The notes beneath the pieces were generated by a model. That model ran no database searches, was not told the DNA's origin, and was given only the letters and a program-made list of their open reading frames with translations. Source: Leucobacter chironomi DSM 19883 (GTDB taxonomy: Bacteria > Actinomycetota > Actinomycetes > Actinomycetales > Microbacteriaceae). From it: a stretch of 64,000 nt of DNA. This document shows, piece after piece, positions 54,261-64,000 of this stretch. Location of the stretch: the NCBI RefSeq assembly GCF_000421845.1, contig NZ_ATXU01000003.1:1-64000 (forward strand), read 5' to 3'. Within the stretch, counting starts at the first letter, position 1. Each line of letters starts with the position of its first letter. Position numbers and translations under genes: made by a program.

Positions 54261-54962
54261 TCAGTAGCTGACGGTGCTCTCGTCGCCGGTGTCGGTGATG
54301 ATCTTGAGCCCGGCGCTCGTGCCGAGCAGCACGGCGCCCGCGCGCAGCAGGGACAGCGCCTGGGCGTAGGTCTTGATCGAGCCCGAGGCCTTCACCTGCA
54401 CGCCGTCGCGCGCGCGCTCCACGAGATAGCGCACGCTCTCGGGGTTCGCGGTCTCGATCTGACCGCTGCTCGCGTTCTTCAAGAACGCGGCGCCCGCCTC
54501 CTGCGACAGTTCGACCGCGGCCTCGCGCTCCGCCTCCGTGAGGAGCGGCAGCTCCAGCATCACCTTGACCGGGATGCCGCTCGCCCGCACCACACCTGCG
54601 ATGTCCTCGCGGAACTCGTCGTACATGCCGCTCTTCAGCCAGCCGATCTGCACGCCGATGTCGAGCTGGGTCGCTCCGAGCCGCGCGATCTCCGCCGCCT
54701 CCGCGGCCTTGCCCGCGCTGGTCATGACGCCGACGTTGGGGAAGTCGAGGGCCGACGCGAGCTCGACGCCCGTGCCCGCCAGCTCGGAGGCGACGAGCGG
54801 CACCCACGACGCGGGGACCATCGCCGCGTTGAAGCCGTGCTCCACCGCCTCGCGCGCGTGCGCGACCATCCGCTCCTTCGTGATGCCCGTCTCGATGAGC
54901 GTGTGCTGCACGTAGGGTGCGAGCTCGGCGGGTGCGAGCGTGAGTTCCTCTGCACTAGACAA
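54261..54962 (-). CDS. DeoC-like class I aldolase
   Basis: A 233-residue TIM-barrel aldolase of the deoxyribose-phosphate aldolase family. LDIGVQIGWLKSGMYDEF, AGAAFLKNASSGQ and VQVKASGSIKT align with the D, Schiff-base K and second K of DeoC. The phosphate-loop residues differ: TSTG reads NASSG and GG reads GS in ASGS, so the substrate may not be deoxyribose-5-phosphate. GTSAGLKII at the end is kept. TTG 54962 is the start, with AAGAGA eight bases upstream. Within the operon it should cleave the phosphorylated sugar made by the PfkB kinase. Confidence 0.85.
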   Translation of the reverse strand: MSSAEELTLAPAELAPYVQHTLIETGITKERMVAHAREAVEHGFNAAMVPASWVPLVASELAGTGVELASALDFPNVGVMTSAGKAAEAAEIARLGATQLDIGVQIGWLKSGMYDEFREDIAGVVRASGIPVKVMLELPLLTEAEREAAVELSQEAGAAFLKNASSGQIETANPESVRYLVERARDGVQVKASGSIKTYAQALSLLRAGAVLLGTSAGLKIITDTGDESTVSY

Positions 54963-55009
54963 TGTCAGTTCTCTTTTCTTGTTTCGGTGGATCCGCGTAC
55001 GCGGAGAGG

Positions 55010-55465
55010 TCAGAGCTTGTCGGCGTAGTAGTCGGGAACGACGACGCCGTCGCCGCCGAACCACTTCGGCACGTCGACGCCGCAGACGAGGCCGATGTTG
55101 CCCCACGGCTCGAACGCGCCCGTGCGCACGATCACCTTCGCCTGCCGGGCGAGCTCGCCGAGCATGTCCGTGTGGCTGCGGGTGGTGAACTCGGCTCCCG
55201 CGAAGGTCTGCTGCAGCCACTCGTCGAGCCGCGGGTTGTTCGAGACCACGTCTTCGGCGCGCACGACCCCCTCCACCACGAGCTCCTGCGAGATGAGACC
55301 GAGAACGGTGCGCAGATCGGGCAGGTTCTCGGTGATGGCGAGATCGATGCGGTCGGCATCGCGCGGGATCGGGAACCCCGCGTCGACGACGAGGATCAGG
55401 TCGGTGTGGCCGAGCGTCGCGAGCGCGGCGCTGAGCTTGTCGTTCAGAATTCCTGACTTCTTCAT
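55010..55465 (-). CDS. RbsD/FucU-family sugar mutarotase (D-ribose pyranase-like)
   Basis: A 151-residue protein. MKKSGILNDKLSAALATLGHTDLILVVDAGFPIPRDADRIDLAI is the RbsD signature, with the catalytic His in GHTD. It would interconvert pyranose and furanose forms of the imported sugar before phosphorylation. The usual E. coli protein is about 139 residues. It lies between the ATPase and aldolase genes. Confidence 0.92.
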   Translation of the reverse strand: MKKSGILNDKLSAALATLGHTDLILVVDAGFPIPRDADRIDLAITENLPDLRTVLGLISQELVVEGVVRAEDVVSNNPRLDEWLQQTFAGAEFTTRSHTDMLGELARQAKVIVRTGAFEPWGNIGLVCGVDVPKWFGGDGVVVPDYYADKL

Positions 55466-55484
55466 GAGTCTTCCTCTCGGTCGC

Positions 55485-57005
55485 CTAGGCGACGGATGCG
55501 GTGGCGCCGGTCGCCAGCGCCATGATGGATTCTTCGGTCGCGGCGCCGCTGTCGATCACGGCGGCGAGCCGTCCCTCGCGCATCACCGCGATGCGGTCGG
55601 TGATGGTGAGCAGTTCGGGCAGGTCCGACGAGGAGCACAGGATCCCGACGCCCTGAGCGGCGAGGTCGAACAGCAGCTCGTAGATCTCGGCCTTCGCGCC
55701 GACGTCGACGCCGCGGGTGGGCTCGTCGAGCATGATGACGCCCGGATCGATGGCGAGCCACCGGCCGAGCATCGCCTTCTGCTGGTTCCCGCCCGACAGC
55801 GAGGTGATCCCCTGCCCCATGGTCGCGGTCTTGACCCGCAGGCGCCCCGCCTGATCCCGGGCCCGTCGGTCGAACTCGCGGCGGCGGATCAGGCCGAACC
55901 TCGTGAGCGACCGAGCTGTGAGAGCGCCGATGTTGTCGGCGACGCTCATGGTCGTCAGCAGGCCCTGGGCTCGACGCTCGCCCGGCACGAAGGCGAGCCT
56001 CCGCTCGACACTCGCGATCGGCGAGCGGGAGGCGTAGTCCTCGCCGAGCACGCGGACGGAGCCGTGACCTCCCGGCTGCGCGCCGAAGATGTTCTGCAGC
56101 AGTTCGACCCGCCCCGAGTCGGGCAGCCCGGCGACGCCCAGGATCTCGCCCGGTCGAACCGTGAAGCTCACGTCGGCGTGGCGCCGCCCGCCGAGCTGCT
56201 CGACCTCGAGCACGGGCGGCGCGGACTCGCGAACGGAGGAGGCCTGCTCGGCACGGGTGGCGAACTGGCCGAGCTCGCGACCGACCATCGCCGCCACGGC
56301 CTGCTCAGGCGTCGTCTCGTCGCGCCGCCACGAGGCGACGTGCCGGCCGTCGCGCAGCACCTCGAGCTGATCGCACAGCTCGAACACCTCGGGCATGCGG
56401 TGCGAGACGTAGATCATGGTCGTGCCGGCCTGCTTGAGCCGGCCCATCAGGGCGAAGAGCCGGGCGGCCTCCGCGGGGGTGAGCATCGCGGTGGGCTCGT
56501 CGAGGATCAGCACGCGGCAGCCGCGCGCGATCGACCGGGCGACCACCACGAGCTGCTGCGTCGCGAGATCCAGTTCGCGCACGACGGTGCCCGGGTCGAT
56601 GTCGAGATCGAGCTCGGCCAGCAGTTCGGCGGTGCGCCGCCGCATGCCGGTTTTCGAGGGGAACCAGCGGTTGCCGGGCTCGACGCCCGCGAGCACGTTC
56701 TCGGCCACCGTGCGGTCGGGCAGCAGGGAGAGCTCCTGCGGCACGATGGCCACGCTGTGCCGGGTGAGCACGGTGTTCGGGTCGAAGGACGCGACCTCCT
56801 CCCCGAACACCGTGACGGTGCCGCTGCTCGGCGGCTGCAGGCCGGCGAGGATCTTGAGCAGAGTCGACTTGCCGGCCCCGTTCTCGCCCAGCAGGGCCGT
56901 GATCTCACCCTCGGGGATGTCGAAGCTCACGCCGTCGAGGGCGCGCACCGGCCCGAAGGCGCGGCTCAGCTCGCGCACCCGGACCGCCGGCTCGATGTGT
57001 GCCAT
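55485..57005 (-). CDS. Sugar ABC transporter ATP-binding protein, RbsA-like (two NBDs)
   Basis: A 506-residue double ATPase. NBD1 has GENGAGKSTLLKILAG and LDLATQQLVVVARSIARGCRVLILDEPTAML. NBD2 has the degenerate Walker A GLPDSGRVELLQNIFG and SGGNQQKAMLGRWLAIDPGVIMLDEPTRGVDVGAK. This arrangement is standard for ribose, xylose and AI-2-type importers. It energises the permease at 58120. Confidence 0.93.
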   Translation of the reverse strand: MAHIEPAVRVRELSRAFGPVRALDGVSFDIPEGEITALLGENGAGKSTLLKILAGLQPPSSGTVTVFGEEVASFDPNTVLTRHSVAIVPQELSLLPDRTVAENVLAGVEPGNRWFPSKTGMRRRTAELLAELDLDIDPGTVVRELDLATQQLVVVARSIARGCRVLILDEPTAMLTPAEAARLFALMGRLKQAGTTMIYVSHRMPEVFELCDQLEVLRDGRHVASWRRDETTPEQAVAAMVGRELGQFATRAEQASSVRESAPPVLEVEQLGGRRHADVSFTVRPGEILGVAGLPDSGRVELLQNIFGAQPGGHGSVRVLGEDYASRSPIASVERRLAFVPGERRAQGLLTTMSVADNIGALTARSLTRFGLIRRREFDRRARDQAGRLRVKTATMGQGITSLSGGNQQKAMLGRWLAIDPGVIMLDEPTRGVDVGAKAEIYELLFDLAAQGVGILCSSSDLPELLTITDRIAVMREGRLAAVIDSGAATEESIMALATGATASVA

Positions 57006-57047
57006 GTTCGTCTTCCTGTCTCTCCGTCTGCGACCCGCCGGCCGAGG

Positions 57048-58073
57048 TCAGCCCTCGACCGTCGCCTCGCCCAGGTTGTCCTTGGTGATGAACTGGGCCC
57101 CGGTGTCGACGCCGGTGATCTCGGTGCCCTCGGTGAGGAAGTCGACGAGCGTCTTGACCGCCTGGTAGCCCTGCTCCTCGGGGTTCTGGCTGATGGTGAA
57201 CGTGACGACGCCCTTCTGGAGGAACTCGGCCGTCTGGGGCAGCAGGTCGAAGCCGACCATGCTGATCTTGCCGGTGTTGCCGGACTGCTCGACCCACTGG
57301 GCCGCCGCGGTCGTCGAGCAGCAGTCGAGACCCGCGATCGCCACGACGTCCGACTGGCCGGCCATGGTCGACTCGACGGTGTTGTAGGCCGCGTTGGGCT
57401 CATTGCCGACGTTCACCGGGCCGACGATCTCGAGGTCTGTGCCCGAGAGGCCCTCCTCGAACCCGCCGAAGCGGTCGTGCGACCAACCGGCGCCGGTGTC
57501 GAGCGAGAAGACCACGACCTTGCCGCTCGCCTCCTCGCCGAGCACCGAGACCAGCTCCTCGGCCTGGGCCTGACCCGAGGCCTTGAGATCCTGGCCCACG
57601 AAGCCCATCTGCTGCGAGTCGGGGTTGTCGGTGTTGAACGAGATGATCGGGATGCCGGCGTTGTACGCCTGCTCGATCACGGGCTTCAGGGCGTCGCTCG
57701 AGGCGGAGGAGACGGCGAGGCCGTCGACCGACTTCTGCTGGATCGCGGTCTGCAGCTCGGCGACCTGCTTCGCGGCGTCGCCGCCGGTGGGACCGATCAA
57801 CTGGACGTCGACGCCGAGCTCCTCGCCGGCGCGCTCCATGCCCGCGGTGATGGGGGTGGCGAAGGCGAGCGACGGGTCGTGGTAGCTGAGCTTGATGCGC
57901 AGCTCCTCGCCATCGTCGATCCGCTTCTGGATGTAGTCGGCGAGCTGGAAGCCGTCCGCTGAGACGGCCTCATTGCCCGTGGTGATGGCGCCGCAGCCGG
58001 TCATCCCGAGTGCGAGTGCCGCCGCCGCGATTCCTGCGACGGCCGCCTTCCTGGCAGCTGATACGAGGGACAT
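57048..58073 (-). CDS. Sugar-binding lipoprotein, RbsB-like
   Basis: A 341-residue type I binding protein with a lipobox (ALGMTGCGAI). PIIAGM-like opening AFATPITAGMERAGEELGVDVQLIGP, DGLAVSSASSDALKPVIEQAYNAGIPIISFNTD, and GAGWSHDRFGGFEEGL follow the family. The sugar-contacting residues cannot be matched with confidence to ribose. An AAAGGAG box lies upstream of ATG 58073. Confidence 0.9.
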   Translation of the reverse strand: MSLVSAARKAAVAGIAAAALALGMTGCGAITTGNEAVSADGFQLADYIQKRIDDGEELRIKLSYHDPSLAFATPITAGMERAGEELGVDVQLIGPTGGDAAKQVAELQTAIQQKSVDGLAVSSASSDALKPVIEQAYNAGIPIISFNTDNPDSQQMGFVGQDLKASGQAQAEELVSVLGEEASGKVVVFSLDTGAGWSHDRFGGFEEGLSGTDLEIVGPVNVGNEPNAAYNTVESTMAGQSDVVAIAGLDCCSTTAAAQWVEQSGNTGKISMVGFDLLPQTAEFLQKGVVTFTISQNPEEQGYQAVKTLVDFLTEGTEITGVDTGAQFITKDNLGEATVEG

Positions 58074-58119
58074 CGATGACTCCTTTGTGCTGGTGTGTCC
58101 GTTGGTGATGGTGAAGTGC

Positions 58120-59118
58120 TCAGGCCCGCGTCTTGCGCTTGCGCTGCCAGGTGTCGGCGGCGACGGCCGCGATGATCACGAGGCCGGTGACGACCGTCTG
58201 CCAGAACGACGAGATGCCGTTGATGTTGAGGATGTTCTGCAGCAGCCCGATGAACGCGACCCCGATCACGGTGCCGAGCATCGTGCCGCTGCCCCCGAAG
58301 AGCGCCGCGCCTCCGATGATCACCGCCGAGATCACGGTCAGCTCGAGACCGGTGCCCGTGACGCCCTGCACGTACGACAGGAACGAGAGGCCGAGCACGC
58401 CGGCCATGGCCGCGGTCAGGCCGGAGAGCACGAAGGCGCCCACCTTCACCCGCTTGACGTTGATGCCGACGAGACGGGCGGCCTCCTGGTTGCCGCCGAC
58501 CGCGTAGGTGTTGAAGCCGAAGCGCGAGCGCGAGAGCAGCACGACGCCGATGGCCGCGATGACGGCGAAGAAGATGAGCTGCATCGGCACGACCCCGAAC
58601 AGCCGCCCCTGCCCGAGCAGGGTGAACTCGGCTACTCCGGGCTGCGACGAGCTCAGCGAGATGGGGGCGCCGTCCGAGATGAGCAGCGTGGCGCCCCGGA
58701 ACACGCTCAGCGTGCCGAGGGTCACGATGAAGGAGGGCACCCCGAGCAGCACGACGGCCAGGCCGTTGAGGAGCCCGGCGAGCACGCCGACGGCCAGGCC
58801 CACGAGCACGGCCACCGGCCAGGCGACGCCGGCGGCGATCACCATTCCGGTGCTGATCGCCGCGAGGGCGTAGATGGAGCCCACCGAGAGGTCGATCTCC
58901 CCGTTGACGATCACGAACGTCGCCCCGATGGCCATGATGCCGATCTGCGCGATCTGCTGACCGACCGAGAGCAGGTTGTCGGCCTGCACGAAGTTGGGCG
59001 AGAGCACCGCACCGAGGATGAACAGCAGCACGAGCGCCGCGAGCACCCCCGCCTCGCGCGCGTGCACGAAGGCGCGGACGTCGAACTTCTTCTGCGGAAG
59101 CGCAGCGGTGGTGGTCAT
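58120..59118 (-). CDS. Sugar ABC transporter permease, RbsC-like
   Basis: A 332-residue membrane protein with about ten helices. FVIVNGEIDLSVGSIYALAAISTGMV and VGGNQEAARLVGINVKRVKVGAFVLSGLTAAMAGVLGLS are RbsC family landmarks. Its ATG overlaps the kinase stop (ATGA). Confidence 0.93.
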   Translation of the reverse strand: MTTTAALPQKKFDVRAFVHAREAGVLAALVLLFILGAVLSPNFVQADNLLSVGQQIAQIGIMAIGATFVIVNGEIDLSVGSIYALAAISTGMVIAAGVAWPVAVLVGLAVGVLAGLLNGLAVVLLGVPSFIVTLGTLSVFRGATLLISDGAPISLSSSQPGVAEFTLLGQGRLFGVVPMQLIFFAVIAAIGVVLLSRSRFGFNTYAVGGNQEAARLVGINVKRVKVGAFVLSGLTAAMAGVLGLSFLSYVQGVTGTGLELTVISAVIIGGAALFGGSGTMLGTVIGVAFIGLLQNILNINGISSFWQTVVTGLVIIAAVAADTWQRKRKTRA

Positions 59119-60044
59119 CGGGCTTCTCCGTTCTGGGTGGGGCGGGGCAGGCCGAGCTGTTCGGCGGTGGGCAGTGAGGGGATGACGCCGGCGACGGTCA
59201 CGGCGTGCGCGCCGGCGGCCGCGGCCAGCTCGGCGGCGGCGTCGATCGAGCGGCCGGTGGCCAGCCCGACAGCCAGGGCCGCCGTGAAGGAGTCGCCGGC
59301 GCCGGTCGTGTCGACCACGTTGGCGACCGCGTGCGCCTGCACCGGTCGCACCCCCTCGGCGTCGGCGATGAGCGCGCCGTGGCCACCGCGGGTGAGGATC
59401 GCGCACCCGCCCGTGCGCTGCTGCAGCATGGTCGCGAGCGCCACGTCGTCGAGCCCGTGGTCGGCGACCAGGCCGAGGAGCACCGGCGCCTCGGTCTGGT
59501 TCGGGGTGATCACGTCGATGTCGGCCCAGACCTCGTCGGGGAGCCGCCTGGCGGGGGCGGGGTTGAGCAGCGTACGGGTGCCGCAGAGGCGGCCGATGCG
59601 CAGCGCTGCGGCGACCGCCGCACGGGGGATCTCCATCGACACCACGAGCACGTCGGCCCCCTCGATCTCGGGGCGGAAGGCCTCGACGGCGTCGGCGTCG
59701 AGCTCGTCCAGGGCGCCGGGGGCGATCGCGATGCGGTTCTCGCCCGAGGGGTCGACCTCGATGAAGCCGACCATCGTCGGCCCCTGCGCGGTGAGGACGC
59801 GCTCGGCGTCGACGCCCTCCCGGGTCCAGAGCTCGCGGGCAGCGCTGCCGTGGGCGTCGTCTCCGATCGCGGTCAGGAAACTGACGCGCGCGCCGAGGCG
59901 CGCGGCGCCGATCGCCTGGTTGGATCCTTTGCCGCCGTGCTCGCTCGCGAAGGAGCCGCCGCTGACCGTCTCACCCGCCGAGGGGAAGCGAGGCACCCGC
60001 ATCGTGAGGCCGACGCCGTAGCTTCCGACTACCGCAATCTTCAT
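59115..60044 (-). CDS. PfkB-family sugar kinase, ribokinase-like
   Basis: A 309-residue kinase. EHGGKGSNQAIGAARLGA is PfkB signature 1; VDTTGAGDSFTAALAVGLA holds the catalytic Asp and anion hole (GAGD). LNPAPARRLPDEVWADIDVITPNQTEAPVLL is ribokinase-like. But the N-terminal ribose contact (GSxNxD in RbsK) reads GSYGVG, losing both Asn and Asp, so ribose may not be the substrate. ATG 60044 is the start. It is first in the operon kinase-permease-binding protein-ATPase-RbsD-aldolase-GntR. Confidence 0.88.
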   Translation of the reverse strand: MKIAVVGSYGVGLTMRVPRFPSAGETVSGGSFASEHGGKGSNQAIGAARLGARVSFLTAIGDDAHGSAARELWTREGVDAERVLTAQGPTMVGFIEVDPSGENRIAIAPGALDELDADAVEAFRPEIEGADVLVVSMEIPRAAVAAALRIGRLCGTRTLLNPAPARRLPDEVWADIDVITPNQTEAPVLLGLVADHGLDDVALATMLQQRTGGCAILTRGGHGALIADAEGVRPVQAHAVANVVDTTGAGDSFTAALAVGLATGRSIDAAAELAAAAGAHAVTVAGVIPSLPTAEQLGLPRPTQNGEAR

Positions 60045-60063
60045 TGATTCGCACCGAACTTCT

Positions 60064-60097
60064 TTGTACGTGGACAACTATGAACAATTACGAATAG
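60064..60097. promoter_or_regulatory. Candidate GntR operators in the sugar-operon promoter
   Basis: TTGTACGTGGACAA (60064-60077) is an inverted repeat with TTGT/ACAA arms. It is close to the AraR-type operator ATTTGTNCGTACAAAT, bound by a GntR-type winged helix. Next to it CTAT...ATAG (60078-60097) is a weaker palindrome that overlaps the -10. The GntR-UTRA protein of the operon is the likely binder. Confidence 0.55.
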
Positions 60098-60122
60098 TAG
60101 GACGATTCGGAGCGCTCGTCAA
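60094..60122 (-). promoter_or_regulatory. Promoter of the sugar kinase operon
   Basis: On the minus strand, TTGACG (60122-60117), 17 bases and TACTAT (60099-60094), a near-consensus housekeeping promoter. Confidence 0.85.
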
Positions 60123-60330
60123 GCGGCGCCCGGCACGCTCCCGAGTCGGGTCGCAGAATCCGAGTGGCGAGCACGCGGACGCGCGGTCGAGCGCGCCTCG
60201 CGCGGCGCGCGCGGCGCGGGCCGCAGCGGGCGGCCGGGCCGCAGCGCACGGCTCCGGGCGGCAGCAGGAGCGCCGCAACGCCGCGATCCCGCGACTCGCA
60301 GCCGCGATCAGAGACGAGGAACGGCGCCGA

Positions 60331-61068
60331 CTAGCACGGCGCGACGAGCGCGAAGGGGTAGCGCGCGGATCGGGCGACCCGCTTCGAGTCGTCGAGGGAC
60401 GCGATGTCGCCGCCGGCGAAGCGGTCGCCCGTCTCGTAGCCCGGGTCGCTCGACACGACGACGCGGCCGGCCGTGTTCACGAGCGTCGCCTCCGGCAGCT
60501 CTGCGACGCTCGGCAGCAGCACGCCCTCGAGCGAGGAGACGAGCACGTCGGCGCAGACGACGCCCGAGAAGCGGCCGTCGAGCAGCACCGGGATCGACGA
60601 GGTGATGGTGATCTCGTTCGAGCAGAGATAGTCGACGAAGGGGCCGGCGATGTGGCGCTCGCCGGTGGCCTGGGGCACCCGGTACCACTCGAGACGCACG
60701 AGGTCGATGGCGGCCTGACCCGGCCCGAAAGTTGATGACGCGAGCAGACTGCGCTCGGGCCCCTGCCACCAGGCGAGCGGGTTGCCCTCGGAGACGACGG
60801 CCTCACTGGCGCAGTAGCCCGCGCCGTAGAGCGGCCGGTCGGCGACGTCGAGGATCGCGTGGGCTTCCGGCTCGACGATCGCCGCGAGCTGATGCCCGCT
60901 CAGGGGGCCGTCGCTCAGCTGCTCCTGCAGTTGCGCGGCGAGGCGAGGCGCCCAGCTGTCGAGCGGCGCGAAGACGCCGTCGAAGAACTCGTCGACCGCT
61001 GCGATCCCGTCAGAGAGCGCTCGATCCGCTGCCTTCCCCACCTCAGTCACTCCCCTTCGAGCCGTCAC
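60331..61068 (-). CDS. Soluble Cache-domain protein
   Basis: A 245-residue protein without a membrane segment or signal peptide. Residues about 60-235 follow a single Cache/PDC sensor fold (GPGQAAIDLVRLEWYRVPQATGERHIAGPFVDYL, TSSIPVLLDGRFSGVVCADVLVSSLEGVLL, EATLVNTAGRVVVSSDPGYETGD). Such domains bind small ligands, usually outside the cell; here it is cytosolic. Its ATG overlaps the stop of the GntR-FCD gene by four bases (ATGA), so sensor and regulator are co-translated and may work together, near a polyamine importer. It ends with TAG at 60331. Confidence 0.78.
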   Translation of the reverse strand: MTARRGVTEVGKAADRALSDGIAAVDEFFDGVFAPLDSWAPRLAAQLQEQLSDGPLSGHQLAAIVEPEAHAILDVADRPLYGAGYCASEAVVSEGNPLAWWQGPERSLLASSTFGPGQAAIDLVRLEWYRVPQATGERHIAGPFVDYLCSNEITITSSIPVLLDGRFSGVVCADVLVSSLEGVLLPSVAELPEATLVNTAGRVVVSSDPGYETGDRFAGGDIASLDDSKRVARSARYPFALVAPC

Positions 61069-61871
61069 CGGTTGCTCCGGCGTGAGTCAAGTGTGGCACG
61101 AAACGCCTCGTCCCGCGGATCGGCGAGGAGCTCGGCGCGGAAGGCCACGAGCCAGCGCACCGAGTTGCGAACGCTCTCGCGCACCACGGCGCGGGCGGCG
61201 GCGGCGTCGCCGGCGCGGGTCGCCTCGATCTGGGCGGCGAGCGCGTCGTGGGTGTGCAGCCGCTCGCCCGTGTCGACGTCCTGCAGGCCGAGCAGCGGCG
61301 TGAACTCGGTCTGCACGCGCACGTGCTCGTTCGTGAGTCGCACCGACTGGCTGAGCGCGGCGAGTTCGAGCTGCACCTCGGTGATGCGGCGGCGCCAGAG
61401 CTCGGGCGGCAGCGCGCGGGCGGTGTCGAGGATGCCGCGCACCACGTCGAGCTCGTCGGGCGTGGCCCGGAGGCAGGCGTAGTCGGCGCAGGCGCCCACG
61501 ATCACCTCGTAGTGCACGCCCAGGTCGGCGAGCGCGACGCGGGGCATCTCCATGAGCGCGCGCGCGTTGACCTCTTCGACGGCGCCATGGCTCGACCGCA
61601 CGAAGCTGCCGCCGTGGCGGCCTCGCCTCGTCTCGATGAGCCCGCGGTGCCGCAGCGCTCCGAGCGCTTCGCGCACGGTCACGACGGCGACGCCCAGCAG
61701 GCCGGAGAGCTCCGTTTCGCTCGGCAGCCGCTCGCCCTCGGTGAAGGCCCCGACCGAGATGGCCTGCACGATGCGGGAGACCACCTGCTCGGTGCGCCCT
61801 TCTTCGCCGATCGGCGCGAAGGCGGCGGTGCGCAGGCGACTCGGAGGCGACTGCACGAGCGAACTGTTCAC
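61065..61871 (-). CDS. GntR-family regulator with FCD domain
   Basis: A 268-residue FadR-type regulator. The winged helix is RIVQAISVGAFTEGERLPSETELSGLLGVAVVTVREALGALRHRGLIETRRGRHGGSFV. The C-terminal helical FCD domain carries His residues (e.g. LHTHDALAAQIEATRAGD) that bind metal and a carboxylate ligand. GTG 61871 has a perfect GGAGG six bases upstream. It is divergent from the ABC importer and probably controls it. Confidence 0.9.
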   Translation of the reverse strand: MNSSLVQSPPSRLRTAAFAPIGEEGRTEQVVSRIVQAISVGAFTEGERLPSETELSGLLGVAVVTVREALGALRHRGLIETRRGRHGGSFVRSSHGAVEEVNARALMEMPRVALADLGVHYEVIVGACADYACLRATPDELDVVRGILDTARALPPELWRRRITEVQLELAALSQSVRLTNEHVRVQTEFTPLLGLQDVDTGERLHTHDALAAQIEATRAGDAAAARAVVRESVRNSVRWLVAFRAELLADPRDEAFRATLDSRRSNR

Positions 61872-62067
61872 CGACGACCTCCGGTCTTTCTGCGGATCCT
61901 GACGAGTTTCCCACGGTTCGAGTGGGGATTGCCTGAGCCGCAACGTGATCAAAACGTAACGTACCCGGATCGCCTTCGTCTCCAAACCTATAAACCCATA
62001 TGTTATCTTTCTAGACATCGGCCCACCAGGGCCCGGTTCGACAACGACGTTGAGGAGCATCGCCCCC
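61872..62067. promoter_or_regulatory. Divergent promoter region between GntR-FCD and ABC importer
   Basis: An AT-rich stretch at about 61945-62015 contains TATAAA, TATGTT and an ATGT-N11-ACAT repeat (about 62000-62018). Either could be part of promoters and a GntR operator. No clear -35/-10 pair can be fixed. Confidence 0.4.
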
Positions 62068-63168
<1,101 letters not shown>

Positions 63169-63248: not shown

Positions 63249-64000
63249 ATGAACAAGAAACTGCTCGCCCCCGCAGCCCTGCTGGCTGCCGTGGGCCTCG
63301 CACTCTCCGGCTGCGCGAGCAGCGACGCCGGCGGCGACACCGCCGGCGGCCTGCAGATCGACGTGCCCGACGTCCCCATGATGGAGAAGCTCGGCGACAT
63401 GGAGAACGAGGTGAACATCCTCGCCTGGTCGGGCTTCGTCGAGCCGGCCTGGGCCGATCAGTTCACCGCCGACACCGGCTGCAAGGTCAACCGCAAGGTC
63501 TTCGCGACGAGCGACGAGGCCGTGCAGCTCATGCGCACCGGCGAGTACGATCTCGTCTCCGCCTCGGGCGACGCGAGCCTTCGCCTCATCGTCGACGGCA
63601 ACGTGCAGCCGCTCAACACCGAGCTCATCCCCAACTTCGGCGACGACATCGTCGAGGGCATGAAGGGCCAGCTCTACGACACGCTCAACGGCAACGTCTA
63701 CGGCATCCCGATCGGCCGCGGCGCCAACATCCTCGAGTACAACAGCGAGGTCGTCACCGAAGCGCCCACCAGCTGGGACGTGGTGTGGGAGGCCGACAGC
63801 CCCTACGCCGGCAAGATCGCCGCCTACGACAGCCCCATCTACATCGCCGACGCCGCCATCTACCTGATGGAGCACGAGCCGGACCTCGGCATCACGAACC
63901 CCTACGCGCTCGACGAGGATCAGCTCGCCGCCGCCACCGAGCTGCTCAAGCAGCAGAACAAGATGGTGTCGGAGTACTGGTCGCCCGCCACGAACGTGAC
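63249..64000 (+). CDS. Polyamine-type ABC substrate-binding lipoprotein, C-terminus beyond window
   Basis: The frame is open to the right edge (250 codons seen). It begins MNKKLLAPAALLAAVGLALS with a lipobox LSGC, then a PotD/F-like mature part (VNILAWSGFVEPAWADQFTADTGCKVNRKVFATSDEAVQLMRTGEYDLVSASGD, NVYGIPIGRGANILEYNSE, TSWDVVWEADSPYAGKIAAYDSPIYIADAAIYLM). It should bind a polyamine or related compound outside the membrane. AAAGGAG lies six bases before ATG 63249. Permease genes are expected downstream. Confidence 0.9.
   Translation, partial: MNKKLLAPAALLAAVGLALSGCASSDAGGDTAGGLQIDVPDVPMMEKLGDMENEVNILAWSGFVEPAWADQFTADTGCKVNRKVFATSDEAVQLMRTGEYDLVSASGDASLRLIVDGNVQPLNTELIPNFGDDIVEGMKGQLYDTLNGNVYGIPIGRGANILEYNSEVVTEAPTSWDVVWEADSPYAGKIAAYDSPIYIADAAIYLMEHEPDLGITNPYALDEDQLAAATELLKQQNKMVSEYWSPATNV

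Follow-up and report, generated by a model that had tools for sequence, protein, structure and literature searches.

In the 64,000-nucleotide window of Leucobacter chironomi DSM 19883 analysed here, two adjacent genes on the reverse strand encode a GntR–FCD transcriptional regulator (61065–61871; 268 amino acids, GTG start) and a soluble double-Cache (dCache) protein (60331–61068; 245 amino acids counted from the first GTG, at 61068), at the place and on the strand where the initial annotation had put them. Divergent from this pair, on the forward strand, a PotA-type importer ATPase (62068–63168; matching TIGR01187, ABC_tran and TOBE_2) is followed by a YdcS/PotD-like substrate-binding lipoprotein (63249–64000, running past the window; matching the YdcS model) and, on the contig past the window, by two permeases. 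The region between regulator and importer holds a palindromic operator candidate, AACCTATAAACCCATATGTT (61985–62004), as well as a direct repeat resembling a GlnR box, GTTAC-n6-ATCAC (61945–61960, reverse strand), found with a relaxed pattern. An Rfam scan of 60000–62300 returned no structured RNA at gathering scores, and as a search of 61860–62080 for sigma-70 promoters and terminators was empty, no promoter is placed. Beyond the Cache gene, a GC-rich stretch without a convincing gene by eye (60100–60330) separates it from a ribose-type sugar operon on the reverse strand (54261–60077), whose kinase, permease, binding protein, ATPase, isomerase and aldolase were named by eye.

The Cache gene had been read as starting with an ATG inside the regulator stop. 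Its first codon is instead GTG, which shares four nucleotides (61068–61065) with the regulator TGA in a possible GTGA overlap (61065–61068, reverse strand). Two more in-frame GTGs lie at 61050 and 61041, and the second of these has, as judged by eye, the better ribosome-binding sequence, so that the true start may be 27 nucleotides later and the overlap is not certain. Across 61 loci, an in-frame Cache start at the 4-nt overlap is possible in 25, as counted by a script that picked the start closest to the overlap spot; it is the adjacency of regulator and Cache that is conserved, rather than the precise overlap.

Matches of the Cache reading frame to Pfam lie below the model cut-offs (dCache_1, 1.3e-6 and 28.6 bits against 45; MCP-like_PDC_1, 1.1e-5 and 26.3 bits against 27). 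Despite these weak matches, the predicted AlphaFold2 model, built from 27 sequences (mean pLDDT 90.2, pTM 0.87), supports a Cache fold. In VIA-align, the top eight solved sensor domains align with it at Z 19.3–20.2 across 212–231 residues, led by McpX (Z 20.2; 3.2 Å over 221 residues), a Leptospira receptor (19.9), TlpQ (19.7), McpU (19.6), MkcA (19.4), PctD (19.3) and 3LIB (19.3); PacA follows at 18.6 and amino-acid receptors stand lower, between about 16.5 and 18. Z differences of less than 1 were treated as ties, and the fold by itself thus leaves the ligand unfixed. The best Foldseek match is the putrescine receptor McpU. The sensor domains of McpX, TlpQ, McpU, PctD and PacA share the double-Cache fold with it along almost the full chain (Z 18.6–20.2), but those domains are extracytoplasmic parts of membrane receptors, whereas the protein here is a short free domain. 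Over the first 60 residues of 61 Cache sequences, 19-residue hydropathy never exceeds 1.56, compared with 2.05 for the importer lipoprotein; the interior maximum is 2.22 in one of the 61 and 1.75 in the window copy, and this hydropathic interior is modelled as strands and a helix. A secreted or membrane-anchored protein was rejected for this lack of an N-terminal signal or helix.

The core of an amine-receptor pocket motif (dCache_1AM, the amine-type double Cache) is kept. We compared the PctD residues that are named for amine binding in the available text of PMC10104139, using a profile alignment to PctD (7prq, in which residue numbers are those of the chain plus 11, an offset derived from F188-Y189 and consistent with the remaining residues). 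W155 corresponds to W100, F188 to W128, Y189 to Y129, M215 to I155 and D235 to D174; W100, W128 and D174 are present in all 61 Cache sequences and, in a wider set of 84, in 83, 81 and 84, respectively. S217 falls on S157 or on T156, according to where a one-residue gap is placed; Ser occupies position 157 in 33 of 61 sequences. The alignment covers the core amine motif, with the R103/D133 lid pair outside the aligned region.

The hallmark of the amino-acid motif (dCache_1AA), as placed from the alignment, is an Arg two residues ahead of the WY pair in PctA. Leu126 occupies that position in the window Cache, and Arg is found there in 0 of 61 sequences and 4 of 84, ruling out an amino-acid-type motif. 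Ranking by sequence gives another picture: the Cache family profile matches the amino-acid receptor PctA best (1.8e-8) and TlpQ next, a Leucobacter-weighted profile puts a uracil receptor first and PctD second, and the Cache of a second, distant pair in the same genome (G000:C6; Cache identity 28%) has PctB as its best sequence match. Amine receptors are therefore not top-ranked by sequence, unlike in the structure ordering. We infer from the conserved core that the Cache protein is an amine binder; which amine it binds is a matter of prediction as well.

The importer gives a candidate for that amine. Its ATPase passes the polyamine family TIGR01187 (360.6 bits; curated cut-off, 355.6), bearing out the earlier naming of a divergent polyamine-type importer. 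The binding protein matches the YdcS model over its full length at 283.3 bits and falls below the cut-off of 725, so polyamine is a candidate label for the importer substrate. Conservation of the pair beside PotABCD-type genes, a check proposed in the initial annotation, could be run: among 51 diverse and mutually related loci, with neighbours found by a home-made heuristic gene caller and named after their nearest models, divergent Pot-type operons occur in 27. Nine of the 51 have a cluster with a glutamine synthetase (GS)-like enzyme and a P450, eight of these also with a PuuD-like hydrolase; nine have a CaiB-type CoA-transferase, eight of these also an acyl-CoA dehydrogenase. Both the GS-like/P450 and the CaiB-type clusters are present at three loci, and 42 of 51 loci lie beside amine-linked gene sets. 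This census excludes L110, L117, L121, L147 and L039, where the Cache gene was not called, and in a scan of ten neighbourhood representatives only a GABA transaminase passed its NCBIfam cut-off. Leucobacter-centred loci (L032–L061), counted apart, have pot genes in 28 of 29, the other (L042) being cut by a contig end.

The signal may be another small amine or amino compound rather than a polyamine—a methylated amine, a GABA-like compound or ethanolamine—and we rate this only somewhat below an even chance. Amine-type Cache domains take several amine classes, according to the available text of PMC10104139, and both the sub-threshold match of the YdcS-like binding protein and the varied catabolic contexts of the relatives fit such a signal; against it stand the ATPase, which passes the polyamine family cut-off, and the putrescine receptor McpU as the best Foldseek match.

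Regulator and Cache occur together far beyond chance. At 61 of 61 loci, the two in this genome included, the regulator lies upstream of the Cache gene on the same strand, at one locus (L015) about 0.7 kb away. A profile search found Cache matches in 41 of 150 genomes of the family, and all 53 matches have a regulator no more than 1 kb upstream. In the reverse direction, with the best 17 candidates per genome scored in most genomes, 52 of the 54 best regulator matches (E ≤ 3.9e-22) in the same 150 genomes have a Cache neighbour; at E ≤ 1e-15 the count is 53 of 76, and the 23 without Cache are nearly all weaker matches. Distances in the regulator and Cache trees correlate (r = 0.91, 62 pairs), in part through plain species relatedness. 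A tally across the phylum (16 of 296 genomes) is not taken as prevalence, as scoring covered the best nine candidates of most genomes and several weak matches sit in long frames.

The two unpaired members of the best 54 regulators are in G038, at a contig end, and in G056. The latter (L153, 9095–9904, reverse strand) is a close regulator (42% identity) and adjoins a DJ-1/PfpI-like protein, named by eye; loss of the Cache gene or a partner swap is possible there.

In at least four genomes from three families (G077, G140, G593 and G815), regulator and Cache are encoded in one reading frame. Those of G077 (L128, 7499–8965, reverse strand) and G140 (L129, 6359–7999, forward strand), two species of one genus, score 244 and 253 bits against the regulator profile and 210 and 209 bits against the Cache profile; G593 (L162, 6137–7615, forward strand) and G815 (L163, 6372–7874, reverse strand) belong to other families. 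For L129, L162 and L163 these coordinates are frame limits, with no start chosen. The fusions occupy three distinct positions in the trees: L128 and L129 group with each other, L162 is next to L117, which is unfused (support 0.98 to 1.0), and L163 lies near L134 and L140, these three grouping at 0.83 and 0.94 in two trees, with weak support for its closest sister. The single-frame forms may be fusions, or some may be ancestral and later split. The wider searches scored the best five and four candidates per genome in most genomes, and no rate was derived from them. Frames of equal length in G842, G769, G1032 and G761 (L164–L167) were rejected on finding separate genes, which limits the fusion claim to four genomes; a 540-residue frame at L014 and similar long frames were also set aside, regulator and Cache there occupying different, overlapping frames.

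Because fused relatives exist, regulator and Cache probably act as one switch, and physical contact between the separate proteins may be expected. That the Cache protein instead acts on its own in the cytosol, binding or buffering amines, and has no more than the operon in common with the regulator would suit a gene overlap that is only partly conserved, but it leaves unexplained the single-chain forms in three families and the near-strict two-way pairing among closer homologues; we consider it very improbable.

The regulator passes Pfam for both of its domains (GntR, 51.8 bits against a cut-off of 27; FCD, 29.4 bits against 24.3). Its model (pLDDT 87.1) has GntR regulators with FCD-type domains as top structure matches, and DgoR, VanR/Atu1419, DhdR and TM0439 share its winged helix and all-helical FCD bundle. 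Metal-binding FCD domains use three His (H134, H174 and H196 in TM0439), as given in the available text of PMC7674646, which also states that FadR itself binds no metal. The window regulator has E, L and S at these positions, the first of which hinges on a one-residue register choice (Glu, Gln or Leu). Unlike in DgoR, VanR/Atu1419, DhdR and TM0439, the first metal-ligand His is replaced in all 84 paired regulators, 75 of which have Glu there; the second and third His are each kept in 30, all three in none, and 48 lack every one, as do 53 of the first 61 loci. Ten other FCD regulators of the same genome keep the first His in eight, the second in eight and the third in seven, an eleventh (L087) having been left out of this control because the profile did not find it. 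Among the unpaired regulators that were read, L154 and L155 keep the first His and L153 lacks it. The usual effector site is thus gone, at least in part, from the paired FCD domain, and some relatives retain a portion of it; with the second or third His kept in 30 of 84 each, some of them might still bind metal.

These remnants bear on a reading in which the FCD domain keeps an effector of its own while amine enters as a second signal through the Cache protein. An intact FCD fold is predicted, H2 and H3 each persist in 30 of the 84, and the Glu found at the first position in 75 could still coordinate metal; yet the E, L and S of the window regulator, together with the absence of the full triad from every one of the 84, make two inputs quite unlikely in our judgement. 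The split one-component system proposed in the initial annotation, with ligand sensing supplied by the Cache protein, is favoured by the fusions, the 53 of 53 pairing, the tree correlation of 0.91, the core of the amine motif, the loss of the first FCD His and the position beside divergent Pot-type genes in 27 of 51 loci.

The palindrome at 61985–62004 has the seed AACATATGG-nn-CCATATGTT, and its pattern, allowing up to one mismatch, has no other match in the 2.96-Mb genome. Scored over the 61 upstream regions, the best palindrome reaches 12 or more out of 18 in 55 regions and 14 or more in 42, compared with 36 and 0 of 1,220 letter shuffles; as the seed came from reading these same regions by eye, the count is partly circular. 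Twenty loci from the wider search, which were not used for the seed, give 13 with a score of at least 13, against 3 of 1,000 two-base block shuffles. Where pot genes are divergent, 54 of 55 loci score at least 12; of 25 loci without them 3 do, and the remaining 22 score below 12. The one pot-type miss (L106) arises from an extra reading frame between regulator and Cache that displaced the scanned stretch. One of the three non-pot loci that reach 12 is L138, which belongs to another family, lies beside a GS-like/P450 cluster and scores 17 of 18. The position and recurrence of the palindrome make it a candidate operator for the regulator; the low scores of most non-pot loci and of the four loci with fusions (10, 10, 11 and 13) count against this.

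The nearby direct repeat is also recurrent: [GA]TnAC-n6-[GA]TnAC occurs in 41 of 60 upstream regions, whereas 50 two-base block shuffles give a mean of 1.08 and a maximum of 3. The GlnR box of Streptomyces venezuelae is given as GTnAC-n6-GTnAC in the available text of PMC10704036, from which the window copy differs in its second half, ATCAC. The genome encodes GlnR (97.5 bits) and, with the repeat, this suggests nitrogen control of the pair or the importer.

The fusions, the pairing and the decay of the FCD site speak for a single regulator split in two, whose amine sensor would be the Cache protein, and the candidate operator beside the pot operon favours repression that is lifted by amine. 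We accordingly consider it likely that regulator and Cache form a single amine-responsive regulator of two proteins that de-represses the importer. In the proposed mechanism, the GntR–FCD protein would bind the palindrome at 61985–62004, between its own gene and the pot-type operon. The Cache protein would be an amine-receptor domain moved into the cytosol that takes the amine in its distal pocket and, once loaded, may signal to the FCD domain through direct contact. The presence of amine would most likely lift repression of the importer, repression rather than activation being the sign that we infer for the regulator.

Identical parts and the same operator place permit either sign for the Cache protein, which could also be a corepressor: loaded with amine, it would tighten repression, and the importer would be turned off once the amine pool is full. 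That importers are often closed down by their product counts for this version. Catabolic clusters, for their part, are usually substrate-induced, and several relatives of the pair adjoin such clusters (GS-like, PuuD-like, aldehyde dehydrogenase and GabT), which speaks against it; we regard corepression as unlikely. De-repression by the amine-loaded Cache protein remains our preferred reading.

The arrangement, which the initial annotation had implied to be new, is already in print. A 2023 preprint (PMC10104139) describes, in its available text, stand-alone intracellular amine-Cache proteins of Actinobacteria in two-gene operons with a transcription factor; like those actinobacterial operons, the locus here has, beside a GntR gene, a Cache protein that is soluble, lacks a membrane helix and carries the amine core motif. 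The ten experimental targets given in that text were all picked from membrane receptor families. The importer, operator, FCD degeneration and fusion named here do not appear in the available text. Among the matches listed from titles and abstract openings of open-licence PMC articles, none is an experimental study of such a pair or reports a fusion. What is added here are the fusions, the degenerate FCD domain, the candidate operator and the types of neighbourhood, by which a short genomic remark becomes a mechanism open to experiment: an operator is proposed for it, its ligand class is predicted and single-chain versions of it occur in nature.

If the mechanism holds, a domain of membrane receptors can turn into the detachable sensor of a transcription factor, which would aid signal prediction for actinobacterial regulators of amine uptake and catabolism. 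The wider proposition—that recruitment of an extracellular-type receptor domain as a detachable cytosolic sensor subunit, alongside decay of the regulator's own effector site, is a general actinobacterial design—we regard as evenly balanced. Under such a design, the subunit and the regulator would have been fused several times, Cache subunits would be exchangeable for different amines, and amine uptake and catabolism would answer both to a specific signal, through the palindrome, and to nitrogen, through GlnR.

The second pair of the genome (L096; G000:C6:188000–204000) adjoins genes for a GS-like enzyme, a PuuD-like hydrolase, a binding protein and a P450, with a ferredoxin reductase and a flavodoxin also recognized by eye, a neighbourhood that looks like amine catabolism by gamma-glutamylation.
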